Of a stretch of DNA of 64,000 nucleotides, positions 55,805-57,253 are shown in pieces. Numbering within the stretch: position 1 is the stretch's first letter; each line of letters begins with the position of its first letter. Under the pieces are notes generated by a model, which was not told the origin of the DNA, made no database searches, and was given only the letters and a program-made list of their open reading frames with translations. Both the position numbers and the translations under genes were made by a program. Source of the DNA: Treponema sp. Lineage in GTDB: Bacteria > Spirochaetota > Spirochaetia > Treponematales > Treponemataceae. The stretch covers positions 1-64,000 of the forward strand of contig NZ_JAILGZ010000109.1 in NCBI RefSeq assembly GCF_024696245.1, given 5' to 3'.

Positions 55805-56077
55805 ATGAAAATCAGACCATTGGCAGACAGGGTTCTTGTAAAACAGGTAGCAGCAGAAACAAAAACTGCAAGCGGACTTATTATTCCTGATACAGCACAG
55901 GAAAAAACACAGCAGGCTGTTGTAGAAGCTGTAGGTCCAGGAACAGAAAAGGACAAGATTACAGTAAATACTGGAGATAAAATCCTGTATGACAAGTATG
56001 CCGGAACTGGAATCAAGGTTGACGGAGAAGATTACCTTATCCTTAAGATGAGCGATATTATCGCTGTTGTAGAATAA
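55805..56077 (+). CDS. groES: Co-chaperonin GroES
   Basis: MKIRPLADRVLVKQVAAETKTASGLIIPDTAQEKTQQAVVEAVGPGT. Confidence 0.97.
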   Translation: MKIRPLADRVLVKQVAAETKTASGLIIPDTAQEKTQQAVVEAVGPGTEKDKITVNTGDKILYDKYAGTGIKVDGEDYLILKMSDIIAVVE

Positions 56078-56117
56078 TAAGGGTCATTCTGATACAGGGA
56101 TTTTTATTTTCAATTGA

Positions 56118-56144
56118 AGTGGGTCATTTTGACTCACTTTTTTT
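56118..56144 (+). terminator. Terminator after groES
   Basis: AGTGGGTC-ATTTT-GACTCACT + T run. Confidence 0.8.
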
Positions 56145-56340
56145 ATGCCCTAATTTACCACAAATCTCTTGTATTTTTATGATTTTGTTTACATTTTATG
56201 GCCTTTATTGCCGTTTTTTGATATTTATACCCTGATTTTTTGTTAAATAAAGCCTGCTGCAGGTCTTTTTCTGCCGTTTTGGGTTCAATTTATGCATTTT
56301 TTTTATTAAATTCCATGATTTTTGTGATTTTATTATTAGT

Positions 56341-56357
56341 TTGGCACACTTCTTGCT
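56341..56357 (+). promoter_or_regulatory. Sigma-54 (RpoN) -24/-12 promoter
   Basis: TTGGCACACTTCTTGCT; GG (56343-56344) and GC (56355-56356) separated by exactly 10 nt. Confidence 0.75.
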
Positions 56358-56416
56358 AATATATTTATGAGACATTATTTTATGACTTTCATAAATTATG
56401 TTTTCAGGAGGCTCAA

Positions 56417-57253
56417 ATGTACAACGAATTATCTGTAATGAACTCTTATATTAAAGATATTGCCCGTATACCGCTTTTGACAGCAGAAGAAGAAAAAGAA
56501 CTTGCGGTAAAAGCTGCTTCCGGAGATAAAAATGCTAAAACCAGGCTTATAAATGCCAACCTTCGTTTTGTTATAAATATTGCCAAGCAGTTTGCCCACA
56601 GGGGAATGGAACTGGAAGATCTTGTAAGCGAAGGTAATATTGGTCTTATTATTGCTATTGACCATTTTGACGTTAATAAAGGATTCCGTTTTATTTCTTA
56701 TGCAGTATGGTGGATCCGTCAGACAATTCTTAAGGCTCTCAGCGAAAAAACACGTCCTATAAGACTTCCTATGAATAAGGCTGATGATCTTGTACGCATA
56801 GAAAAGGCCCGCAAGATGCTTGGTTCAAAACTTTCAGAGGAAGAAGAATTTACAGAAGTTGCCCGCATGCTTAATCTTGAATCATCTTATGTAAAGGAAA
56901 TGGTAGAGATTTCAAGGGAAATGCTCAGTCTTGATGCAGAAATTAATGCTGATGGTGCAGTAAAGTCTTTTGGAGAAACAGTAGAAGACTGCCGTTATAC
57001 AGCTCCGGAAGAAGCTGCTGTAGATTCATGCATGAAGGAAGATATTTCTAAGGTACTTTCTTCCCTTAAGCCTAATGAAGAACGTGTTCTCCGTCTGCGT
57101 TATGGTCTTAACGGGGTTAAACCAATGTCATTAAAGGAAGTTGGAAAGCAGTTTAATCTTACCCGTGAGAGAATCCGCCAGATTGAACAGAGTGCAATCA
57201 AACACATGCGTGTACCTGGCAAAATGTCAAAGCTCAGCGCGTATGTTGCTTAA
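56417..57253 (+). CDS. Small sigma-70-family factor (RpoS/RpoD-like, no region 1.1)
   Basis: NLRFVINIAKQFAHRGMELEDLVSEGNIGLIIAIDHFDVNKGFRFISYAVWWIRQTILKAL; C-terminal HTH LKEVGKQFNLTRERIRQIEQSAIKHMR. Confidence 0.93.
   Translation: MYNELSVMNSYIKDIARIPLLTAEEEKELAVKAASGDKNAKTRLINANLRFVINIAKQFAHRGMELEDLVSEGNIGLIIAIDHFDVNKGFRFISYAVWWIRQTILKALSEKTRPIRLPMNKADDLVRIEKARKMLGSKLSEEEEFTEVARMLNLESSYVKEMVEISREMLSLDAEINADGAVKSFGETVEDCRYTAPEEAAVDSCMKEDISKVLSSLKPNEERVLRLRYGLNGVKPMSLKEVGKQFNLTRERIRQIEQSAIKHMRVPGKMSKLSAYVA

Follow-up and report, generated by a model that had tools for sequence, protein, structure and literature searches.

A conserved sigma-54 promoter upstream of a small sigma factor gene in Treponema, a probable output of a small regulon with an Rrp2-type activator

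The window analysed here is a 64,000-nucleotide stretch of a Treponema sp. genome (contig NZ_JAILGZ010000109.1). It contains a gene for a small sigma factor, hereafter sigma1, located between groES and recG. The features of the locus are as follows.

55805..56077, + strand: groES, the upstream neighbour of sigma1, recognised from its translation.
56116..56140, + strand: terminator-like hairpin of 11 pairs with a T tract, after groES, which isolates the sigma1 promoter.
56342..56357, + strand: sigma-54 -24/-12 promoter TGGCAC-ACTTC-TTGCT (TGGCACACTTCTTGCT), from consensus match and conservation.
About 56368, + strand: predicted transcription start, from the geometry of the -12 element (placed near 56367 in the earlier note).
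56406..56411, + strand: AGGAGG ribosome-binding site, from sequence reading.
56417..57253, + strand: sigma1, a 278-aa sigma-70-family factor with regions 1.2, 2, 3 and 4 and without region 1.1, from the open reading frame, domain search and tree.

The description of sigma1 in the earlier note, as a 278-aa sigma factor lacking region 1.1, agrees with the domain search, which matched regions 1.2, 2, 3 and 4 and left region 1.1 unmatched. The same architecture is found in group 2 sigma factors (E. coli RpoS and the primary sigma of Bacteroidota). Unlike these, however, sigma1 scores below both the RpoS and the RpoD cut-offs of NCBIfam in profile searches (251.5 bits with the RpoS equivalog TIGR02394, curated cut-off 378.7). 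In trees it forms a spirochaete clade of its own, nearer to Bacteroidota-type sigmas than to RpoD or to sigma2, a second sigma-70-family factor of the source genome.

By direct reading, TTGGCACACTTCTTGCT spans 56341-56357, with TTGGCAC beginning at 56341. TGGCAC (56342-56347), the spacer ACTTC and TTGCT (56353-56357) place GG at 56343-56344 and GC at 56355-56356, which gives the exact GG-N10-GC spacing; what had been called a near-perfect RpoN consensus is a perfect match. The distance to the sigma1 ATG at 56417, first given as 60 nt, is 59 nt, and the terminator said to separate the promoter from groES was found as the hairpin and T tract at 56116-56140. When the window was scanned with TGGCACN5TTGCW, the sigma1 site was the sole match with fewer than two mismatches. 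The other 32 matches had two mismatches each, a number as in shuffled sequences, and shuffled windows held a mean of 0.06 perfect matches. The spacer upstream of the promoter also contains a palindrome, CCTGCTGCAGG, at 56252-56264, which occurs in none of the other regulon promoters described below.

The long AT-rich leader contains sigma-70-like matches as well, such as that at 56154-56183, and, as is generally known, multiple promoters are common among stress sigma genes. A sigma-70 promoter might accordingly provide basal sigma1 expression, with the sigma-54 site serving stress induction. However, the sigma-70-like matches are weak, their number (six on both strands) is about that of chance (3.0 +/- 1.9 expected), and no conserved sigma-70 element was shown, so that such dual control is possible but somewhat unlikely.

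Conservation of the sigma-54 site was assessed by scoring upstream regions over 11 consensus positions. In the same-genus set, for which 350 nt were examined, 108 out of 110 orthologs have the site at 9/11 or better (75 at 11/11, 28 at 10/11 and five at 9/11), while two genomes (G018 and G098) have no site in the 350 nt upstream. Controls on the same 110 regions reached a maximum of 9/11, a score obtained by four reverse-complemented, one reversed and six shuffled regions. Among the 108 sites, the T-G-G-C and T-G-C columns are 100% identical, whereas the flanks are 40–70% identical, which indicates conservation beyond general sequence identity. All 53 order-level orthologs score at least 9/11, and 49 of them keep GG/GC; the four that do not are all from T. 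denticola-genus genomes. The persistence of the motif in other treponemes, on which the earlier reading depended, is thus borne out, and named genomes, such as that of Breznakiella homolactica, agree on its presence. Members of other Spirochaetia families (G345, G356, G259, G287 and G321) retain the site with scores of 9–10, more distant members of the phylum are mixed in this respect, and the Bacteroidota-type relatives are without it. When 70 full loci were scanned, all 30 perfect matches fell in the upstream zone, and the remaining positions, about 500,000, contained none. The Borrelia rpoS promoter served as a positive control for the scan and scored 10/11 in four out of four genomes, the site being about 82 nt away from where the match starts.

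The site might match by chance, or be a conserved element that another protein binds. This is extremely improbable, since the positions that never vary are precisely those contacted by sigma-54, at the exact spacing, matches are far more numerous than in the controls, and Borrelia rpoS carries the same element. We regard the element upstream of sigma1 as confirmed, in sequence terms, to be a genuine sigma-54 promoter.

The genomes that we take to be those of Borrelia, T. denticola, T. pallidum-like and T. succinifaciens organisms were identified partly from gene content, and that of T. denticola also by primer matches. The T. pallidum-like genome (G157) encodes a divergent sigma1 ortholog (L412:661-1596), which adjoins groES in divergent orientation and has TGGCATGATATTTGCT upstream, at a distance of about 70 nt. 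The syphilis spirochaete appears to retain the sigma1 branch.

Only five perfect sigma-54 sites were detected in the 2.66-Mb source genome. Four lie just upstream of genes, namely those for sigma1, sigma2 (L011), Hsp20 (L010) and a protein referred to here as L009. The fifth (L012) is inside an open reading frame and was treated as chance. The same kinds of gene follow perfect sites in G044, G077 and a close relative, G001. Orthologs of sigma2 have a sigma-54 site in 29 out of 30 loci, and 17 out of 19 L009-family genes have one at 10/11 or better. A relaxed scan (TGGCAY-N6-TGCW) gave seven extra sites, several of them in coding sequence, and was discarded, as a reversed-pattern control returned 8 against 12. 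In eight relatives, a YTTGGCAC-type pattern was used, which is too strict for listing whole regulons.

L009 (G000:C6, 1555-2520) is a 321-aa protein without a Pfam assignment, encoded upstream of an rdgB-like gene, with orthologs in 19 further loci (L312-L330). The sigma70-ECF model matched four out of 15 family members weakly (best 1.7e-5, under the curated cut-off). An AlphaFold model of the L009-family protein (pLDDT 78, pTM 0.45) retrieved long-helix matches only with Foldseek and VIA-align, and a profile–profile comparison with sigma1 was not significant. It is plausible but unproven that the family represents divergent, unrecognised sigma factors. Hsp20 genes with a sigma-54 promoter are present in the source genome (L010:1031-1450) and in T. 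denticola (L402:8715-9155). This heat-shock chaperone is apparently under direct sigma-54 control.

Both proteins that a sigma-54 reading entails, RpoN and an NtrC-type activator, are encoded in the source genome (99% complete). Its rpoN has an intact canonical RpoN box (ARRTVAKYR). A domain search recovered three strong Sigma54_activat proteins, in addition to weaker or degenerate ones. L002, a response regulator, combines GAFTGA with a Fis-type HTH and is encoded beside a histidine kinase gene. It is 53.8% identical to Borrelia Rrp2 over 448 aa, and the order murG, cvpA-like, holB-like, hk2 and rrp2 is the same in the treponeme and in Borrelia, the cvpA-like pair being matched by position and sequence without a BLAST hit. 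In Borrelia, Rrp2 is the known activator of rpoS (PMC3037356). The title of reference 24 in that paper reports Borrelia rpoS as enhancer-independent. In the 220 nt upstream of the four regulon promoters of the source genome, we found no common k-mer or palindrome and no shared upstream activator sequence; among these promoters, only that of L009 has a clear palindrome (TATTCTTAGTTAATTACTAAGAATA).

Three further enhancer-binding proteins (L003, L004 and L005:802-1737) have altered or absent GAFTGA loops. L003 (916-2457) is of the NifA type, with a GAF domain and the loop GAFTDA, and L004 (1213-2223) is an orphan with the loop GAFTGS and no match to a Fis-type HTH. The sigma-54 site could be real and yet be served by one of these two proteins, as both have strong Sigma54_activat domains and the GAF domain of L003 could sense a small ligand. 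We consider this unlikely, given their altered loops and the lack of a Fis-type HTH match in L004, whereas L002 alone is a response regulator with a canonical GAFTGA loop, and Rrp2, its ortholog in Borrelia, is known to activate rpoS (PMC3037356). The activator of the sigma1 promoter is most likely the NtrC-type Rrp2 ortholog, together with the HK2 kinase.

The earlier note had predicted an equivalent of the Borrelia RpoN-RpoS cascade. The prediction is supported, and the evidence goes further than the note did, with rrp2 and hk2 in the same order and Borrelia rpoS matching in the scan. It needs one refinement, in that sigma1 is not the ortholog of Borrelia RpoS. In two maximum-likelihood trees, Borrelia RpoS grouped with sigma2 (support 100/98–100/99, with long branches as a caveat), and sigma1 was placed apart, among other spirochaete and Bacteroidota-type sigmas. 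Moreover, in Borrelia and treponemes alike, a homologous membrane-protein gene comes after rpoS or sigma2, with tsaD behind it in most loci seen, an order absent from the sigma1 locus (groES-sigma1-recG). Tree and synteny together identify sigma2 as the ortholog of Borrelia RpoS, and sigma1, judged by the same evidence, is a paralog. That sigma1 itself might be the rpoS ortholog, in a plain Borrelia pathway, is suggested by the similar promoter logic and size of the two genes and by the lack of region 1.1 in both products. With the trees, notwithstanding their long branches, and the independent synteny pointing elsewhere, this is very improbable. The sampled Borrelia genomes have two sigma matches each, RpoD and RpoS, and sigma1 is an extra branch without a counterpart in them.

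All four components of the Rrp2-HK2-RpoN-RpoS pathway have a conserved context in the source genome (L002, hk2, rpoN and sigma2), so the treponeme has a complete set. In common with Borrelia burgdorferi, a -24/-12 promoter lies directly before a small sigma-70-family gene, RpoN, the Rrp2 ortholog and HK2 are present, and sigma2 has a site too. Unlike Borrelia, the treponemes have several sigma-54 outputs (sigma1, sigma2, the sigma-like protein and Hsp20) as well as multiple candidate activators. A requirement for BosR has been reported for the Borrelia cascade. Given the 54% identity of L002 to Rrp2 within a shared gene order, the Rrp2-RpoN-RpoS pathway appears to be older than Borrelia, and since the sigma-54 system is also found in free-living and gut species, it would not have originated as a tick-host virulence device.

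The T. denticola genus departs from this pattern in both RpoN and its sites. In five genomes, the RpoN box (rpoN L339-L343) reads AVRTVNKYR, not ARRTVAKYR, and the corresponding sites (L242-L246, L326-L330 and L380-L384) mostly have TAGCAY or TTGCAC, not TGGCAC. At the sigma1 promoters, TAGCAT replaces TGGCAT in four out of five, and GG is retained at Hsp20 in T. denticola, at sigma1 in G184 and at L009 in G202. The RpoN box binds the -24 element (PMC4496707), so the changes in box and site look like linked drift, relaxed rather than switched, and sigma-54 and its promoters show an apparent covariation in this genus.

Expression data are available for T. denticola, whose sigma1 ortholog was recognised as TDE0937 with the help of published primers: those for TDE0937 match the gene of genome G198 exactly, and those for TDE0934-0936 match beside it. 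Like sigma1, TDE0937 lies next to groES, there in divergent orientation; its site reads TAGCATGGTTTTTGCT, differing from that of sigma1. Expression of TDE0937 rose 2.8-fold under heat, 21.8-fold with oxygen and 14-fold upon osmotic downshift; the gene belongs to a stress-induced core set that includes the Hsp20 gene TDE1029, and a role in stress regulation was proposed for it (PMC2965109). The sole Hsp20 gene in the T. denticola region examined, which we take from its position to be TDE1029, has TTGGCATATAAATTGCT upstream. We equate TDE0070 with sigma2 on the basis of position; its expression fell 1.8-fold upon osmotic downshift (PMC2965109), so the outputs need not all move together. The text of PMC2965109 makes no mention of RpoN, and in the open-licence papers searched we found neither a description of sigma-54 control of TDE0937 nor any upstream regulator of it. 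Overall, the expression data suggest a general-stress role for sigma1.

We conclude, with a probability of roughly 0.88, that the element upstream of sigma1 is a functional sigma-54 promoter and one output of a small treponeme sigma-54 regulon, whose activator is most likely the Rrp2 ortholog. Transcription of sigma1 would then depend on sigma-54 RNA polymerase and an ATP-driven enhancer-binding protein, and the other predicted outputs would be sigma2, the cryptic sigma-like protein and Hsp20. The signal, as judged from the T. denticola data, is probably protein-damaging, oxygen or osmotic stress. Upon this signal, sigma-54 would switch on several sigma factors at once, which would in turn switch on stress genes in a putative downstream regulon.

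A broader reading, towards which we lean slightly, places sigma-54 at the apex of a general stress response, both in treponemes and across much of the class Spirochaetia. One Rrp2-type activator would fire sigma1, sigma2, the third, sigma-like family and Hsp20 in parallel, the Borrelia cascade would be a reduced remnant that keeps only the RpoS arm, and the changes in the T. denticola genus, R to V in the RpoN box and GG to AG or TG in the -24 element, would reflect a joint drift of the two. The RpoN-RpoS cascade has been studied as a virulence pathway of Borrelia. In the treponemes, the sigma1 branch would control the sigma factor known as the most stress-responsive in T. denticola, a genetically tractable species, and would offer a specific mechanism for a general stress response in spirochaetes without a recognised RpoS or sigma-B. 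The covariation of RpoN box and promoter would amount to a natural experiment on the sigma-54 residue that recognises the -24 GG, and the origin of the Lyme pathway would become an answerable question.
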